Shown: piece by piece, positions 25,719 through 32,677 of the stretch
How positions within the stretch are numbered: position 1 is the stretch's first letter
Layout: every line of letters begins with the position of its first letter
Assembly: GCF_022693705.1 (NCBI RefSeq)
Contig: NZ_CP094288.1
Coordinates: 442,267 to 484,392, forward strand
Length of the DNA: 42,126 nt
Reading direction: 5' to 3'
DNA from: Infirmifilum sp. NZ
Lineage (GTDB): Archaea; Thermoproteota; Thermoprotei; Thermofilales; Thermofilaceae
Notes under the pieces: model-generated
What the model was told of the DNA's origin: nothing
The model's input: only the letters and a program-made list of their open reading frames with translations
The model's database searches: none
Position numbers and translations under genes: made by a program

Positions 25719-26339
25719 TCATAGCTCAAAGGAGCTTGCGGAGTTAGCCTTTAGGGCTTTGAGTACTTTCCTCTTCACGCTCCGCGGGTACGGGTACTCT
25801 TCTAGAATAGCTTTGACGGCTTCTGGTCGGGTTTTCTCTAACAGGTGGGGTAGGATCTCGTCCAGGAATGGGTAGTCGAAGTAGTAGAGGTCCGTGAGCG
25901 TCTTCTCGGGGGTGGAGACGGGCAGGCTCCAGTCTCCGTACCTGACGAGAGTGTAGGAGCCGAAGAGTTTCCTGGATATGCGGCGAACGACGAGCGGTGT
26001 ATCGAGCACGGTGTAGACGCCGGCTCTCACCTTCCTAGGCGCGGCGTAGGTGAGCACCTCGGGGTTCGGCACCTGGTCCCAGGCTCCGTGGAGGTAGGCC
26101 GCAAACCCGAGGCCATAGTACGCTGTGTGCGGTGGCAGAGTGTATATAAAGACGAGTGGGTCTTTGTGGAAGCTGTACCACCCTTTTCTCAGCCTGACGA
26201 CCTCACCCCTCGACAACAGGGTGTGAACTAGCACTTTGGCGTAGGAGGGGGGTATTCCGAGCGCGTAGAGCTCGTGCACCGAGAAAGCCGGTTTGTCGGG
26301 TCTGTTGAGGTAGGTTCTCACCTTATCCACGTGCCTCAT
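25719..26339 (-). CDS. AbiEi-like antitoxin / transcriptional regulator
   Basis: A 206-residue protein. Residues 1-60 form a winged helix (FSVHELYALGIPPSYAKVLVHTLLSRGEVVRLRKGWYSF), the N-terminal domain of AbiEi-type antitoxins; the rest matches the AbiEi C-terminal part (THTAYYG-like PPHTAYYGLGFAAYLHG, APRKVRAG, and STPEKTLTDLYYFDYPFLDEIL). In type IV AbiE systems this protein neutralises AbiEii and represses its own operon through inverted repeats. Its ATG 26339 overlaps the toxin stop by ATGA. The order is toxin first, then antitoxin, opposite to the classic abiEi-abiEii order. Confidence 0.78.
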   Translation of the reverse strand: MRHVDKVRTYLNRPDKPAFSVHELYALGIPPSYAKVLVHTLLSRGEVVRLRKGWYSFHKDPLVFIYTLPPHTAYYGLGFAAYLHGAWDQVPNPEVLTYAAPRKVRAGVYTVLDTPLVVRRISRKLFGSYTLVRYGDWSLPVSTPEKTLTDLYYFDYPFLDEILPHLLEKTRPEAVKAILEEYPYPRSVKRKVLKALKANSASSFEL

Positions 26340-26977
26340 TTCAAAGCACCTACAATCCTCTCCCTTACAGTCTCGAAGCTCGGGGGAAGGCCCTTCAGTA
26401 TTAAAACCCTGAGCTCCCCCCAGTCCCGAGGAGGTTCGTCGAGGTGAGCTGAGAGCCTCTGGAGCTCCTCCCGCACCGAGCAGGGGTCCAGGTGGCTCAA
26501 GAGGTAGTACACGTCGTAGAGATCCCGGGCCTTACGCCTTTCGATGTAAGCTTGGACTTTCTCCCTTAGCAGAAGCTCCGGAGGGAGTGTGCGAACGACG
26601 ATAAAGCCCCCGTCAACCAGCTCGAACTCCGCCTCAACGGAGACACTGCTCATATCACGTTTAGTGAACTCAACCCTAACCTCGCGGCGGTCGCCGACGA
26701 CCATGAAAACCGCGTTTGCCGTTTCGCGCAACTTCCTAAGAGTCAGCTCAAACGACTCCACCTCTCTCTCAAGCTGGCTCCGGTACAGCGTCGGATTCTC
26801 GTGGTACAAGTCCAAGTCCTCTGAGAAACGTGGGGATTTGTACACTCTCCAGATCACAGTCCCCCCGTGAAGCACGGGCGGCGGCTTGAGCACCCTGTAT
26901 AGGACGCTGACGACTATGTCCTGAAGCTCGGCGATCTCCCTTTGCTCGCGCCTTCGTATGTAAATCCTTATGCTCAT
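26336..26977 (-). CDS. AbiEii-like nucleotidyltransferase toxin
   Basis: A 213-residue protein of the AbiEii/AbiGii nucleotidyltransferase family. HGGTVIWR (37-44) is the glycine-rich nucleotide loop, and SPRFSEDLDL (48-57) carries the metal-binding acids D54 and D56. KVQAYIERRKARDLYDVYYLL is the conserved RDLYD helix that follows. All key residues are kept, so it should be active. Family members add nucleotides to targets such as tRNA and stall growth, in phage defence or plasmid stabilisation. ATG 26977 lies inside the left arm of a perfect 15-base inverted repeat that also holds the TATA box. Confidence 0.85.
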   Translation of the reverse strand: MSIRIYIRRREQREIAELQDIVVSVLYRVLKPPPVLHGGTVIWRVYKSPRFSEDLDLYHENPTLYRSQLEREVESFELTLRKLRETANAVFMVVGDRREVRVEFTKRDMSSVSVEAEFELVDGGFIVVRTLPPELLLREKVQAYIERRKARDLYDVYYLLSHLDPCSVREELQRLSAHLDEPPRDWGELRVLILKGLPPSFETVRERIVGALK

Positions 26978-27038: not shown

Positions 27039-27821
27039 TTAGAGTATGACAAGCCCTCCCTCAGCTGAGCAGATCTCTTTGAGCACTCGGACGGCAGAGA
27101 GGGCTGCGAGGTAGCTCGTCTTGGGGTTCTCGGGAGAGGGGACGTTCTCGAGGGTCACTCTAACCCTGCCCGCGGGAGACTCCGCCACGACCTCGTGCAC
27201 GTTCCTGCTGAGGCTGGGGTCCGCCACGACCTCGACCTCCGCTTCGACGCCTGCCGCTAGCGAGAGGGTGGCTGCGACGTTCAGGCTTTTCGGGTAGGCT
27301 TTAACCGCTTCGCTGGCCCTCCCCCTGAAGACCACCGTGGGCCCCTGCACCTCCGCCCCCAGGGACTTCGCCGGCTTGCGCGTCACCAGCTTAAGCCTGC
27401 TGACCCCCACCTGCGAGTAGGCCTTCAGCACGTCGAGCCCGCCAGCGGCCCCCGCGGGTACGTAGATCCTTCTACCGCTCCTCCGCGCTACCTCAAGGAG
27501 CTCGCGGAGGGTCTGCTCCTCCATGAGGGCCCCTACGCTCAGCACGAGTAAGTCCGAGCGCTCGAGGATCCTCTTGGCGTACTCCCTAACCGCCTCCTGG
27601 CTCGCGGCTTCAACGACAATGTCGGGATTCAGGGCCAAGACGTCCTCTAAGCGGGAAGTGATCGCGGGTCTGCTCCTTTCGAGCCGGCTAGCCAGCTCCC
27701 GGCAGGCGTCGGGCCTCGCGTCCATGAGCGCTACGAGTTCAGCCCTAACCGAGCCCTGGTCGACCGCGCGGGCTATCACGCCGCCGATCGCGCCGCAACC
27801 GATGATCGCGACTCTCTTCAC
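27039..27821 (-). CDS. nadX: L-aspartate dehydrogenase
   Basis: A 260-residue protein. The Rossmann motif VAIIGCGAIGGVIA is at the N-terminus, then VVEAASQEAVREYAKRIL, the conserved YVPAGAAGGLDVLKA, KSLNVAATLSLAAG, and NVHEVVAESPAGRV with the catalytic His, ending NPKTSYLAALSAV. It oxidises L-aspartate to iminoaspartate with NAD(P), replacing the aspartate oxidase NadB used by many bacteria. Start GTG 27821 lies one base after the nadC stop, so it is the third gene of nadA-nadC-nadX. All recognised residues are present. Confidence 0.9.
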   Translation of the reverse strand: MKRVAIIGCGAIGGVIARAVDQGSVRAELVALMDARPDACRELASRLERSRPAITSRLEDVLALNPDIVVEAASQEAVREYAKRILERSDLLVLSVGALMEEQTLRELLEVARRSGRRIYVPAGAAGGLDVLKAYSQVGVSRLKLVTRKPAKSLGAEVQGPTVVFRGRASEAVKAYPKSLNVAATLSLAAGVEAEVEVVADPSLSRNVHEVVAESPAGRVRVTLENVPSPENPKTSYLAALSAVRVLKEICSAEGGLVIL

Positions 27822-27822
27822 G

Positions 27823-28671
27823 CTAGACCACCTCTAGGCTTATGTCTACGGGCAGAGGCCTCATCGTTATAACGCTGGAGCTTAAGACGTCGGGACCCGC
27901 GCTAGCGTACTCCGCCACGTTCTCAAGCGTTATCCCTCCGCTCGCCTCCACGAGAACCCTGCCCCTCAGGCCCTCGGATTCAAGGAGCCTGACCGCCCTC
28001 CTGACCTCAGGGGGGCTTAAGTTGTCGAGCATGACGACGTCCACCCCCAGCCTCGCGGCTAGAACGGCCTCCTCAGGCGTGCGAACCTCGACCTCGAGCT
28101 TGTGGATGAAGCTCTTACCGCTTAGAGCCCTCCTCACGGCCTCCTCGAGGCTACCCGCGACAGCGATGTGGTTGTCCTTTATCAGCACCGCGTCGCTCAG
28201 AGAGAGCCTGTGCGTGTCCGCCCCTCCCGCCGCCGCTGCGAGCTTCGCGAAGTCCCGCAGGCCGGGTGGGGTCTTCCTCGTCACTGCTACCCTGACGGCG
28301 GGGTTGGCTCTCCTGGCGGCTTCCACGAACATCTTGGCAGTCATCGCGACCCCCATGCAGTAGTTTAGGATGTTGAGAAGGGTGCGTTCCACGAGCAGGA
28401 TTCCTCTTGCATCCCCTTCCAAGCGCATGACCGCCTGCCCTTTGCGCGCCACCGCGCTACTGGGCATAAGCGAGGTGACTCTGAAGCCGAGTAGTTCCAG
28501 TGCCTCGGCTAAGTCCTCCGTGCACGCGACCACGGCCTCCTCGCTCTTAAGCACGACCTCTGCCGCCACGGTTTTCCCCCGCGGCACCACGAGGCTGGTG
28601 GTCAGGTCGCCGTGGGGCGCGTCCTCCTCCACCCACCTGAGTATTTTATCCGCAAGTAGCCTAGCCATCAT
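27823..28671 (-). CDS. nadC: Quinolinate phosphoribosyltransferase (decarboxylating)
   Basis: A 282-residue protein typical of NadC in length. EDAPHGDLTTSLVV at the N-terminus, RTLLNILNYCMGVA, VTRKTPPGLRDFAK, the catalytic-region block HRLSLSDAVLIKDNHIA, LEVEVRTPEEAVLAA, VMLDNLSPPEVR and VEASGGITLENV are all in family order. It makes nicotinate mononucleotide from quinolinate and PRPP. ATG 28671 overlaps the nadA stop (ATGA). Confidence 0.93.
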   Translation of the reverse strand: MMARLLADKILRWVEEDAPHGDLTTSLVVPRGKTVAAEVVLKSEEAVVACTEDLAEALELLGFRVTSLMPSSAVARKGQAVMRLEGDARGILLVERTLLNILNYCMGVAMTAKMFVEAARRANPAVRVAVTRKTPPGLRDFAKLAAAAGGADTHRLSLSDAVLIKDNHIAVAGSLEEAVRRALSGKSFIHKLEVEVRTPEEAVLAARLGVDVVMLDNLSPPEVRRAVRLLESEGLRGRVLVEASGGITLENVAEYASAGPDVLSSSVITMRPLPVDISLEVV

Positions 28672-29588
28672 CCGCGCCTCACCAGCTCCAGGCTCCGCTC
28701 AATTACCTCACGGGCCCTAGAGGCTATTCGGGGGTCGAGGGTGACCTTTGGCTCAAGCCTCTCGAGAGACTCGAGGAGGTGGCGGGGAGTGATCTTCTTC
28801 ATGTCCGCGCAGACGGCCCTCGCGTTCAGAGGGAGTATCTCCTTACCGGGCGCGAGCTTCCGCGCACGGTAGGCTAGCCCCTCCTCTGTGCCCAGAAGCA
28901 CCTTGCTGGCCCGCGTCCTCTGCACGTACTCCAGCATCTGGCTCGTGCTACCGACGAAGCTGGCCATCCGCCTCACCTCCCTAGGCGCTTCGGGGTGCAC
29001 TACTAGCTCTGCCCCGGGGTGCTCCTCGAGGGCCTTCTCGGCGTAGTAGCGTGAGATCAGAAACTCATGGACAGGACAGTGGCCGTTGGGGGGCACGGGG
29101 ATCACCTCCACCCCCGTCTTCTCGGCTACGAACTCCGCGAGGTTCCTGTCAGGCCCGAAGAGCACTCTATCAGCGCCAAGCCTTGAGACGAGCTTCACCG
29201 CGGAGGAGCTCGTGGCCACGTAGTCCGCGGATGCTTTGGCCTCGATCGGGGAGTTTACGTAGACCACTAGCGGCTCTCCCGGGAACTTGGACCTGTACCC
29301 GCTCAGCACGCCGCCATTGAGGAAGTCGGCGAGGGGGCAGCCAGCGTAGCTGTTAGGGTGAATGACCACTTTGTCTGGGTTCAGCGCGGCCACCATTTCC
29401 GCCATGAACTTCACTCCAGCCATCACTATCACGTCCGCGTCTACCTCCTGTGCCTTCAGCGCCAGCTCGAGGCTGTCGCCGACGAAGTCCGCCACGTCCT
29501 GGACTTCCGGTAGCTGGTAGTTGTGCGCCAGGATCACCGCGTTTCGGAGCTTCTTCAGCCTGGCTATCTCTTCGTAGAGCATAGCCAC
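28668..29588 (-). CDS. nadA: Quinolinate synthase (4Fe-4S)
   Basis: A 306-residue protein. AVILAHNYQLPEVQDVADFVGDS is split over residues 17-40, the family's N-terminal signature. Three Cys suit the single [4Fe-4S] cluster: NSYAGCPLADF, NGHCPVHEF (in place of the usual position) and NARAVCADMKKITPRHL. It condenses iminoaspartate with DHAP to quinolinate, so it depends on the nearby Suf-type scaffold for its cluster. DHAP is also the product of the glycerol operon. GTG 29588 (or ATG 29582) is about 27 bases after the TATA element at 29613-29620. It is the first gene of nadA-nadC-nadX. Confidence 0.92.
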   Translation of the reverse strand: MAMLYEEIARLKKLRNAVILAHNYQLPEVQDVADFVGDSLELALKAQEVDADVIVMAGVKFMAEMVAALNPDKVVIHPNSYAGCPLADFLNGGVLSGYRSKFPGEPLVVYVNSPIEAKASADYVATSSSAVKLVSRLGADRVLFGPDRNLAEFVAEKTGVEVIPVPPNGHCPVHEFLISRYYAEKALEEHPGAELVVHPEAPREVRRMASFVGSTSQMLEYVQRTRASKVLLGTEEGLAYRARKLAPGKEILPLNARAVCADMKKITPRHLLESLERLEPKVTLDPRIASRAREVIERSLELVRRG

Positions 29589-29717
29589 CGTGCATCGGGG
29601 GATGACGTTGGGATATAACGGTTCTCTGCCAAGGTTGCATAGGGGGCCAAGTTATTCTCTGCAATTAGTCACAGAGCTTTTATAACGTTTAAATCGTCCG
29701 GAGAGTCGGTTTTACAC
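29589..29717. promoter_or_regulatory. Divergent nad promoter region with paired direct repeats
   Basis: The 129-base gap between nadA and the NAD-kinase-like regulator has a minus-strand TATA (CGTTATATCC, 29611-29620) for nadA and plus-strand TATA candidates (29678-29687, GTTTAAAT 29687-29694) for the regulator. TTCTCTGC occurs twice on the plus strand, at 29622-29629 and 29655-29662, 33 bases apart; the first copy abuts the nadA TATA box. TATAACG also occurs at 29614-29620 and 29681-29687. These are candidate operator sites. Confidence 0.5.
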
Positions 29718-30710
29718 GTGGAGGTTCAACTCATCTACCCGTCGCGCCTCGAGAAGTACGCTAAGAGGCTCCAGGCTGAGCTAGCGCAGAGAGGGTACCC
29801 CCCTCAGGCGATTGCCCTCGAGAAGGTTGAGGAGCTAGGAAGGGGCCTCCTGATCGTATTGGGGCTTGACAGGGAGGTGCTCGAGGCCCTTCACCACGCA
29901 CCGTACCAGTCGACGGTTCTGCCCGTGGCGCCACCCTCGTACACAGGTTACGTGGCTTTAACCCCGTTCCAGAAATGCGCCCAGGTGGTCGAGCAACTTG
30001 AAGCTGGCAGGATCGAGCCGCTGCGTGTACCCGTCCTGTCTGCTTCGGTGGACGGTACGGCAAACGTGAGAGCAATCAACGAGGTCGCGGTGTTCCCCAG
30101 GAGGAGTGCCACTCTCATGGAGTACGACCTGGAGGTGAACGGGGACCTCCTGTGGCACGACACTTCCGATGGGGTGATCGTTGCCACCCCGCTGGGTTCG
30201 ACGGCGTACGCTCTGTCAGCAGGTGGGCCCGTGGTGCTCCTCGACACCGAAGCGCTGGTCATCGTTTCTGTCAACAGCACAGAGCCGGGTCGGAGGCCGG
30301 TTGTGGTGAGCCTGGGGAGTAGCATACGGGTGGGGGGCATCGCTTCCCGCACGGCTGTGGAGGCGGTGGCTGACGGCGTGGAGAGGGTTGAAGTGGAGGA
30401 GGAGGTTCGAGTGTTTGTAGGCGGCTACCTAAACCTCGTGGTAACCGAGAGCAGGGGTACCGCGCTGGTTAAGAGAAAGCTCACGTACGCCGAGCTGCGG
30501 GACCTGCCTCCAAGCGCTAAGCTTGTGCTTAAAGTGCTTGAGGAGGAGGGCGAGCTGGGCATAAGCGAAATCATCGACCTGACTGGTCTGCCGGAGAGGA
30601 CGGTCAGGCACGCACTGGCCCTGCTCTCGTCCAGGGGCTTCATCGCTAAGCTGGAAGACCCTGTGAACCCGAAGAGGATTCTATATAGGGTCTCTCAAGC
30701 AGTTGCATAA
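29718..30710 (+). CDS. NAD-kinase-fold protein fused to a winged helix, candidate NAD regulator
   Basis: A 330-residue protein. Residues 1-250 have the NAD kinase fold: INEVAVFPR (120-128, with the NE motif N121-E122), D151-G152, and ATPLGSTAYALSAGGPVV (156-173), the substrate-binding core. The catalytic GGDG motif, however, reads GLDR (49-52): the Asp is kept but two glycines that bind phosphate are lost, and the following NLGxxGF stretch is also changed. Residues 258-325 are a winged helix (PSAKLVLKVLEEEGELGISE, then LPERTVRHALALLSSRGF). Divergent to nadA-nadC-nadX. It may be an NAD(P)-sensing regulator, or a true kinase that also binds DNA. Confidence 0.75.
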   Translation: MEVQLIYPSRLEKYAKRLQAELAQRGYPPQAIALEKVEELGRGLLIVLGLDREVLEALHHAPYQSTVLPVAPPSYTGYVALTPFQKCAQVVEQLEAGRIEPLRVPVLSASVDGTANVRAINEVAVFPRRSATLMEYDLEVNGDLLWHDTSDGVIVATPLGSTAYALSAGGPVVLLDTEALVIVSVNSTEPGRRPVVVSLGSSIRVGGIASRTAVEAVADGVERVEVEEEVRVFVGGYLNLVVTESRGTALVKRKLTYAELRDLPPSAKLVLKVLEEEGELGISEIIDLTGLPERTVRHALALLSSRGFIAKLEDPVNPKRILYRVSQAVA

Positions 30711-30726: not shown

Positions 30727-30762
30727 AAAATACTTTAGGTGCACCCCCTCTTTAGCTTAAGG

Positions 30763-31482
30763 ATGGCGACTCTAACCGTTGACAGCATTACCGCATCCGT
30801 GGACTCGAGTGAGGTAGTGAGGGGCGTGAGCCTGACTATTCGAGGCGGCGAGAAAGCCCTACTTTTCGGCCCTAACGGGGCCGGGAAAACCACCCTGCTA
30901 TGCGCGGTAGCCGGGCTCCCCCACGTGCGGGTGACCGGCGGCAGGGTGATCCTGGACGGGGAGGACGTGACGCCGCTCCCGGCCTACGAGAGGGCGCGCA
31001 GGGGTATTGTGCTAGCGTACCAAATCCCACCCGAGCTGACCGGTGTGAGCGTCTCCAGGCTCGCCGACCTTATTTCCAGGAGGGCTGGTACACAGGAGTT
31101 CGTGCAGCAGCTGGTGGAGATCCTGGAGATCGGGTACCTTCTCGGCAGGGACGCCTTCAGGGGGTTCAGCGGCGGTGAGCGGAAGCGGGTCGAGGTCTTC
31201 CTAACCGCCCTCATGCGGCCCCGGTTTGCCCTGCTCGACGAGCCTGACAGCGGGGTGGACGTCGACAGCGTAAAGCTGATAGCTCACGCCATCGACTTCC
31301 TCGTCGAGGAGTTCAACTCCGGCGTGCTGGTCGTCACGCACACCCGGCTGCTGGCGGAGCAGCTCGGGGGTCAGGCTACAGGCTACGTGCTGAGCGACGG
31401 CAGGTTGACCTGCACCGGGAGGGCGCTCGAAATACTCAAGAGGCTTGAGGAGAGGGGGTTCGATGGAGCGTGCTCTGATTGA
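30763..31482 (+). CDS. sufC: Fe-S cluster scaffold ATPase SufC
   Basis: About 239 residues from ATG 30763; the frame opens 24 bases upstream, but TACTTTAGG near 30731-30739 fits a TATA box for 30763. ABC ATPase motifs: Walker A GPNGAGKT (36-43), signature FSGGERKRVE, Walker B FALLDEPDSGVDVD, and H-loop VVTHT. The combination GGERKRVE plus DEPDSGVD is SufC-specific. It works with the SufB-like protein, whose start overlaps its end by 20 bases. No SufD, SufS or SufE is present, as in the minimal two-gene SufBC-type systems of archaea. Confidence 0.88.
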   Translation: MATLTVDSITASVDSSEVVRGVSLTIRGGEKALLFGPNGAGKTTLLCAVAGLPHVRVTGGRVILDGEDVTPLPAYERARRGIVLAYQIPPELTGVSVSRLADLISRRAGTQEFVQQLVEILEIGYLLGRDAFRGFSGGERKRVEVFLTALMRPRFALLDEPDSGVDVDSVKLIAHAIDFLVEEFNSGVLVVTHTRLLAEQLGGQATGYVLSDGRLTCTGRALEILKRLEERGFDGACSD

Positions 31483-32677
31483 GGACATCGTGAAGGCTCT
31501 GAGCAAGCCTTCCCCGCACGGCCCAGACCTGGACCTCGCAGCCTACAAGGTCGCGAAGCCGGAGCTAGGTGAAGGCGGGGGCGCGCTGGTGGAGGAGTCC
31601 ATCCAGAGGAAGGTGGGAGTGCGGCCCGAGCAGCTGAGCTACCTCCAGGTTGGGGAGACGGTCCTGGCCAGGGTCATGTCCGAGAGGTTCAGGTCGATCG
31701 GCGTAGTGGTTGAGCCGCTCACCAGGGCGCTTAAGGAAAACAAGCTAGCTTCCAGCCTCTCCTGGAGGCTCGTGGATCCAGCCACGGACAAGTACACTGC
31801 GCACACCTACCTCTACGGAGGAGAAGCCGGGTACTTCGTCTACGTACCGCCGGGGGTCAAGGCTCCCTGGCCCGTGTACACCTGCCTGAGCCTGTTCACC
31901 GGCGGGGAGGAGGTTCAGCACGCCCACAACATCGTCTACGTCGATGAGGGCGCTGAGGTCGTCGTGACAACCGGGTGCCTGGTCCCGCACGGGAGCAGAG
32001 GGGGATTGCACATCGGGATCTCTGAGTTCTACGTAGCTAGGGGGGCTAAGCTGGTTTACACGATGCTGCACAGCTGGGGAGAGGGGACGCACGTGAGGCC
32101 CCGGACTGTCGTCAGGGTGGAAGAGGGGGGCCAGTACATCAGCTACTACGCTGTGTACAGCCCTGTTGCCTCCATACAGACTGAGCCTAAAGTCTACCTC
32201 GCTCGAGGGGCTCACGCTAAAATGATATCGGTTGTGTCGGGCACGGGAAGCGGCATCTACGACGTAGGGGGCGTGGCGGTACTTGAGGGCGAGGGCGCTA
32301 GCGCTGAGCTTGTTTCAAGGGTGCTTGCGAGCAGGGGGGCTAGGGTGTACTCCAGGGGGATGATCGAAGCCAGGTCGGGGAAGACGAAGGGCCACATTGA
32401 GTGCCTGGGTATCCTGATGGACAACGAGTCAAGCATAGAGGCGGTGCCTGTGCTCTCCTCCCGCGCGCAGGAGGTTGAGCTGACCCACGAGGCGGCCATA
32501 GGGATGATCGCCGGCGAGAAGATCGAGTACCTGATGTCCAAGGGGTTCAGCGAGGATGAGGCGCGGTCACTTTTACTCCGAGGCTTCCTGACTGCTGAGG
32601 CGTCCGGGATACCCGACGCTGTGAAGGCGGAGATAGACCGCGTCGTCGACTACATCGTCCGCCACGCTTTAGGATAA
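31463..32677 (+). CDS. sufB: Fe-S cluster scaffold protein SufB (SufB/SufD family)
   Basis: About 404 residues from ATG 31463, with GAGAGGGGG just upstream and inside the end of sufC. SufB/D beta-helix core: HAHNIVYVDEGAEVVVTTGCL, ISEFYVARGAKLVYTMLHSW, RGMIEARSGKTKGHIECLGILMDNES (Cys and Glu candidates for cluster binding), then HEAAIGMIAGEKIEYLMSKG and EDEARSLLLRGFLT in the C-terminal helices. The N-terminal helical region is shorter than in bacterial SufB. Only one SufB/D copy exists here, so the scaffold is probably a SufB2-C2 complex (inference). Confidence 0.86.
   Translation: MERALIEDIVKALSKPSPHGPDLDLAAYKVAKPELGEGGGALVEESIQRKVGVRPEQLSYLQVGETVLARVMSERFRSIGVVVEPLTRALKENKLASSLSWRLVDPATDKYTAHTYLYGGEAGYFVYVPPGVKAPWPVYTCLSLFTGGEEVQHAHNIVYVDEGAEVVVTTGCLVPHGSRGGLHIGISEFYVARGAKLVYTMLHSWGEGTHVRPRTVVRVEEGGQYISYYAVYSPVASIQTEPKVYLARGAHAKMISVVSGTGSGIYDVGGVAVLEGEGASAELVSRVLASRGARVYSRGMIEARSGKTKGHIECLGILMDNESSIEAVPVLSSRAQEVELTHEAAIGMIAGEKIEYLMSKGFSEDEARSLLLRGFLTAEASGIPDAVKAEIDRVVDYIVRHALG

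Follow-up and report, generated by a model that had tools for sequence, protein, structure and literature searches.

A winged-helix protein derived from NAD kinase very probably controls transcription of NAD supply genes in Thermoproteota

Introduction

The closest described counterparts of the protein reported here, to which we give the working name NadKH, are four regulators of cofactor supply. NrtR joins an enzyme-derived sensor to a winged helix and controls nadABC together with salvage genes; it can lie divergent to a nad operon, and catalysis has been lost in some of its members (PMC6800001). In NadR of the Enterobacteriaceae, a DNA-binding domain is fused to enzyme domains of the NAD pathway, and the NAD-liganded protein is a repressor (PMC6800001). 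NiaR (YrxA) acts, depending on the genome, on the de novo nad genes or on niacin uptake (in part PMC5343564). Among the archaea, RbkR fuses an HTH to a cofactor kinase and regulates the pathway of that cofactor (table in PMC8305020). In the literature that we searched, which mostly did not cover subscription journals, we found no earlier description of NadKH, and the papers found described no regulator of NAD synthesis in Thermoproteota or in ammonia-oxidizing archaea.

Here we propose that a duplicated NAD kinase gave rise to NadKH, and that in Thermoproteota this protein acts as a transcription factor for the supply of NAD. We put the probability of this reading at roughly 0.87, there being no binding, expression or ligand data.

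Results

The window, by which we mean the whole stretch of 42,126 nucleotides that was analysed, carries NadKH as one open reading frame at 29718..30710 (+), with a GTG start and 330 codons for amino acids. Pfam, AlphaFold2 and Foldseek agree on a NAD-kinase-like domain followed by a C-terminal winged helix. The first of these, the putative sensor (residues 1-245, 29718..30452, +), matches PF20143 (NAD_kinase_C) over residues 121-233 with an E-value of 2.5e-21, and a Pfam search found no match in this protein to PF01513, the N-terminal NAD_kinase domain that bears the GGDG motif. The winged helix (residues 262-327, 30501..30698, +), with LPERTVRHAL as its recognition region, is supported by family conservation and by a match of residues 270-311 to PF09339 (HTH_IclR), at 23.9 bits against a curated cut-off of 22. 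AlphaFold2, run on a 37-sequence alignment, returned a NAD-kinase fold and a separate winged helix with a mean pLDDT of 89.3; low values are confined to a flexible linker at residues 246-255, and the winged helix is made of helices 265-277, 282-289 and 293-305 plus wing strands. When the model was compared with the PDB by Foldseek, the top matches were NAD kinases throughout, the best being 7mh7 (E 5.6e-24). The INE motif lies at residues 120-122, DG at 151-152 and the kept NAD-binding motif TPLGSTAYALSAGG at 157-170 (30186..30227, +), and GGDG is replaced by GLDR at residues 49-52 (29862..29873, +). Neither the 3H domain nor the CTP-dependent riboflavin kinase domain was found in NadKH with Pfam; with Pfam and NCBIfam, there was no match to a Nudix domain in NadKH or its nad neighbours, nor to NMN adenylyltransferase and NR kinase domains.

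A protein search of 300 Thermoproteota genomes, in which an orthologue was called as a full-length fusion with E <= 1e-35, separated two clear classes, the 112 genomes with fusion orthologues and those with ordinary NAD kinase matches only. The HTH is kept in every NadKH lineage. In an alignment of 130 NadKH sequences the fourth residue of GGDG is arginine or lysine in 120, the second position is variable and the aspartate (Asp51) is retained. The homologues also keep the NE (NE or ND), DG and TPxGSTAY motifs, with N121, D151-G152, G160-S161, Y164 and G169-G170 invariant or nearly so. W146, D148 and N186-S187 are conserved in NadKH; the corresponding residues of the NAD kinase encoded elsewhere in the genome are Y, L and G-A. 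That second copy, at L001:1372-2211 (1.03 Mb), is intact and reads VGGDGTLL. The fusion and the motif change are shown by computation, and by its sequence NadKH retains the NAD site and has an altered form of the ATP-phosphate loop of kinases.

These data bear on a first alternative, that NadKH is a bifunctional enzyme-regulator which still phosphorylates NAD and also regulates, like NadR or RbkR. In its favour, Asp51, N121, DG and TPxGSTAY show little or no variation, the ammonia oxidizers carry GGDK or GGDR forms with three of the four GGDG residues, and RbkR is entered under both roles, regulator of genes and enzyme (table in PMC8305020). Against it stand the basic residue at the fourth glycine in 120/130 sequences, the coexistence of an intact NAD kinase in the window genome and the failure of the N-terminal NAD_kinase profile to match the window protein. 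We regard this alternative as unlikely, but kinase activity is not excluded because the catalytic aspartate and the NAD motifs persist; its loss is an inference.

Divergent to NadKH, on the minus strand, lie its proposed targets nadA (quinolinate synthase, 28668..29588; NF006878, 2.5e-103), nadC (quinolinate phosphoribosyltransferase, 27823..28671; TIGR00078, 3.2e-80) and nadX (aspartate dehydrogenase, 27039..27821; TIGR03855, 3.2e-80), all three over the NCBIfam equivalog cut-offs. The divergent NadKH-nadA pair recurs in Thermofilaceae, Brockarchaeota, family f50 and the loci L035, L036 and L057, and in Pyrobaculum nadA adjoins NadKH on the same strand or divergently. In ammonia oxidizers NadKH lies away from nadA; a PfkB-type kinase gene precedes it and the gene for CTP synthase converges on it. 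Where a genome lacks nadA, a transporter is often divergent to NadKH. In G280 and G259 this is an MFS member from the aromatic acid/SV2-like branch, and related MFS proteins stand beside NadKH in Pyrobaculum; NiaP nicotinate transporters belong near SV2, and the likeness to NiaP is inferred from this. A Liv-type ABC system beside NadKH in family f35 (c105, c80 and c269) and an APC permease beside it in Sulfolobales (c104) are suggestive only, as their substrates are unknown. Across the genomes, 83 have both NadKH and nadA, 29 NadKH only, 68 nadA only and 120 neither, an odds ratio of 5 that is inflated by phylogeny; three Thermofilum genomes lack both genes.

The initial annotation had claimed GLDR in place of GGDG, kept NE and DG motifs, a C-terminal winged helix and a position divergent to nadA-nadC-nadX, and all of this held. 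Its loss of GGDG is refined, in that the aspartate is kept, the fourth glycine is lost (R/K in 120/130) and the second position varies. It had also asked whether a second, intact NAD kinase exists, as it does at L001:1372-2211 with VGGDGTLL, and whether the GGDG loss, the HTH fusion and the nad neighbourhood travel together; the fusion, the motif change and the linkage to nadA do so across families, as the computation shows.

Several other features of these neighbourhoods were recorded. In the window, a type IV toxin-antitoxin pair (AbiEi-like antitoxin and AbiEii-type nucleotidyltransferase toxin, 25719-26977, -) adjoins nadX, and genes for a SufC-like ABC ATPase and a SufBD core protein (30739-32677, +) lie directly 3' of NadKH. 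The PfkB-family kinase gene that immediately precedes NadKH in ammonia oxidizers is at L042:6793-7662, with equivalents in ~60 loci. The APC-type permease is divergent to NadKH in L117, L118, L119, L126 and L135, which represent the five Sulfolobales genomes that have NadKH but no nadA; in the remaining Sulfolobaceae sampled nadA is present and NadKH absent. Four Pyrobaculum loci (L154, L155, L156 and L160) have a NadC-matching reading frame of ~510 aa, far longer than NadC and possibly fused to another NAD enzyme. In Thermofilum sp. NZ13 (G177; L034 and L115) nadX and NadKH stand side by side, both truncated at the start, with nadC and nadA missing, an arrangement explained by a deletion across the operator or by faulty assembly there. 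In G288 the gene that follows NadKH (L116:6978-8030) was considered as a phosphoribosyltransferase and dropped, as no match in Pfam, NCBIfam or the PDB bore this out.

A 13-bp palindrome, GGCAATAATTGCC, emerged de novo from the regions upstream of NadKH across lineages. The input comprised positions -150..+40 of NadKH in 31 lineage representatives, and the palindromic model reached a log-likelihood (LL) of 58.0, compared with 19.2 +/- 2.4 (maximum 25.4) in 20 dinucleotide shuffles. A model free of symmetry returned GGCAATAATTGCA, and a 17-bp model, which converged on a TATA-like sequence, was discarded. With its own lineage excluded from training, the site upstream of NadKH ranked first or second of the whole locus in eleven loci. 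Several lineages with NadKH have no site upstream of this gene, and the ammonia oxidizers have no strong site at NadKH's own promoter.

We then applied the matrix to regions upstream of nadA outside the training set. In the Nitrososphaeria that carry a distant NadKH, the best site of the 2-kb stretch lies ~100 nt upstream of nadA in 29/29 cases. A site of >=12 bits is found at nadA in 28 of these 29 and in none of 31 genomes without NadKH (p=1.3e-11), the latter set being 31 nadA genes from 16 families. Counted by family, the site occurs in 5/6 with NadKH vs 0/16 without (p=2e-4), and none of 300 column-permuted matrices reached 28 loci. Within family f5, genus g17 has neither NadKH nor the site, and most of g9 and g10 have the site or a close variant. 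Wherever gene order was checked in these Nitrososphaeria, the site lies between nadX and nadA. In ammonia oxidizers it is ~50 nt upstream of the nadA TATA-like box; in Thermofilum and Brockarchaeota it lies just upstream of that box. Genome-wide scans, made as pattern searches, found the exact palindrome once per genome, at nadA, in G126, G102, G150 and G045; most other exact matches fall inside genes and look like chance. No site was found upstream of nadA in three genomes with NadKH (G041, G153 and G248).

The palindrome and its co-occurrence with the regulator in trans are shown by computation; direct binding by NadKH is inferred. It could be argued that another transcription factor owns the palindrome and that NadKH is a divergent NAD kinase, a mere member of the regulon with a winged helix serving another purpose. 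This is supported by the lack of a strong site at the NadKH promoter of ammonia oxidizers and by the inferred nature of the binding; opposed to it are the tracking of NadKH presence by the site at nadA, the derivation of the palindrome from NadKH upstream regions and the conservation of the winged helix in all lineages, and we consider it very improbable. In a simpler alternative, NadKH is a second NAD kinase of the usual kind, its C-terminal helical domain is incidental and it stands beside nad genes by chance. This alternative has in its favour the NAD kinase fold and the occurrence of two NAD kinases in some archaea (PMC8305020). The GGDG change, the linkage conserved in several lineages and the palindrome results with their site-regulator co-occurrence already contradict it, and we take it to be virtually ruled out.

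The window's own sites are poor. A degenerate operator copy, TGCCAAGGTTGCA (29627..29639), lies against the nadA TATA-like box (GGGATATAACGG on the plus strand; 29610..29621, -) and scores 8.5 bits with the family matrix; it ranks only 25 in the 42 kb window when Thermofilum is left out of training. A second half-site, TTCTCTGCAATTAG (29655..29668), lies upstream of the corresponding box of NadKH, TTTTATAACG (29678..29687, +). Both boxes are inferred from sequence. A second Thermofilum species has TTGCATA and TATTCTCTGCAATTA without change. The operator could not have been discovered from the window alone, its copy there being weak and degenerate.

Finally, we looked at sites beyond nadA. A perfect palindrome stands in the region between NadKH and the MFS gene of G280, and in G206 a 69% identical MFS orthologue distant from NadKH has GGCAAGTATTGCC ~73 nt from its start. 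The nadA-less genome G195 has GGCAAATTTTGCA upstream of an isochorismatase-family gene that resembles nicotinamidase; other nicotinamidase-like genes have weak sites or none. The reach of the putative regulator thus likely extends beyond the adjoining operon to nadA in trans, a NiaP-like transporter and a nicotinamidase-like gene, a conclusion from comparative genomics without binding data. Separately, GGCAATATTTGCC occurs ~80 nt upstream of orthologous radical SAM genes (MSMEG_0568-like) in two Sulfolobales (L179:2684-3940 and L180:2496-3758), which remain unexplained candidate members of the regulon.

Discussion

Comparative genomics gives good support to the role and targets of NadKH, and it is very probable that NadKH and its palindrome form a new family of NAD-metabolism regulators with its operator, direct binding being inferred. 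In the mechanism that we propose, the kinase-fold domain, with its NAD site kept and a basic residue at the fourth glycine of GGDG, would very likely act as a sensor. The winged helix, probably dimeric, would bind GGCAA-N3-TTGCC upstream of the controlled genes. The predicted targets are nadA, together with nadC and nadX, in genomes that have de novo synthesis; in some of those that lack nadA, the target would be a gene for a NiaP-like transporter or one resembling nicotinamidase. The suspected ligand, NADP(H), is a guess, with the new Arg/Lys touching its 2'-phosphate. NAD kinase structures place the 2'-hydroxyl that the kinase phosphorylates beside the GGDG loop; because of this proximity, the basic residue in the NadKH loop could hold the 2'-phosphate of NADP(H). 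Among the points that count against this reading are the 29 genomes with NadKH in which no nadA was detected and the persistence of the catalytic aspartate and NAD motifs.

The initial annotation had proposed that a NAD-kinase fold was recruited to bind DNA and regulate NAD supply. The joint occurrence of fusion, motif change and nadA linkage across families, and the palindrome that accompanies NadKH in trans, strongly support this, with direct binding inferred, and the reach found is wider than the adjoining operon that it had named, taking in nadA in trans, the NiaP-like transporter and the nicotinamidase-like gene. Its claim of a repressor is not established. In archaea, positions upstream of a TATA box are no less fitting for an activator than for a repressor, and the site at nadA occupies such a position, which leaves the sign of regulation open. 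Its NAD(P) or NAD/ATP ligand is unproven; a sensor of NAD(P) made from NAD kinase remains the best reading.

A bolder version, which we would neither back nor dismiss, is that this undescribed, phylum-wide regulator senses NADP(H), the ATP-phosphate loop having become a 2'-phosphate clamp (G-x-D-[RK]). If so, a dead copy of NAD kinase would read the product of the active enzyme and thereby control the supply of that enzyme's substrate, from hot-spring Thermofilum to marine ammonia oxidizers.

The main reading would supply a regulator, an operator and targets in organisms important to the nitrogen cycle, including the ammonia oxidizers of the ocean. The palindrome is exact, and unique in several genomes, so that binding and ligand are directly testable. 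Genes of these archaea that are now annotated as a second 'NAD kinase' would have to be renamed, and NAD kinase would join Nudix hydrolases and riboflavin kinase as an enzyme turned transcription factor.

In its parts NadKH resembles NAD kinase (NadK/PpnK) in fold, in the NE, DG and TPxGSTAY motifs and in the position of the catalytic aspartate, but it differs in having G-x-D-[RK] for GGDG, the newly conserved W146, D148 and N186-S187 and an added winged helix. That its logic is that of NadR or NrtR built from a different enzyme remains the best reading. NrtR, however, is bacterial and has a Nudix fold, whereas NadKH is archaeal with a NAD kinase fold and another operator. NadR carries its DNA-binding domain at the N-terminus, with NMN adenylyltransferase and NR kinase domains and without a NAD kinase fold; NiaR is bacterial, binds nicotinate through a 3H domain and lacks a kinase fold (in part PMC6800001); and RbkR has a riboflavin kinase fold, an N-terminal HTH and riboflavin genes as targets. 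NadKH would work like the bacterial NrtR, NadR and NiaR, shares its type of construction with the archaeal RbkR, and belongs to none of these families.
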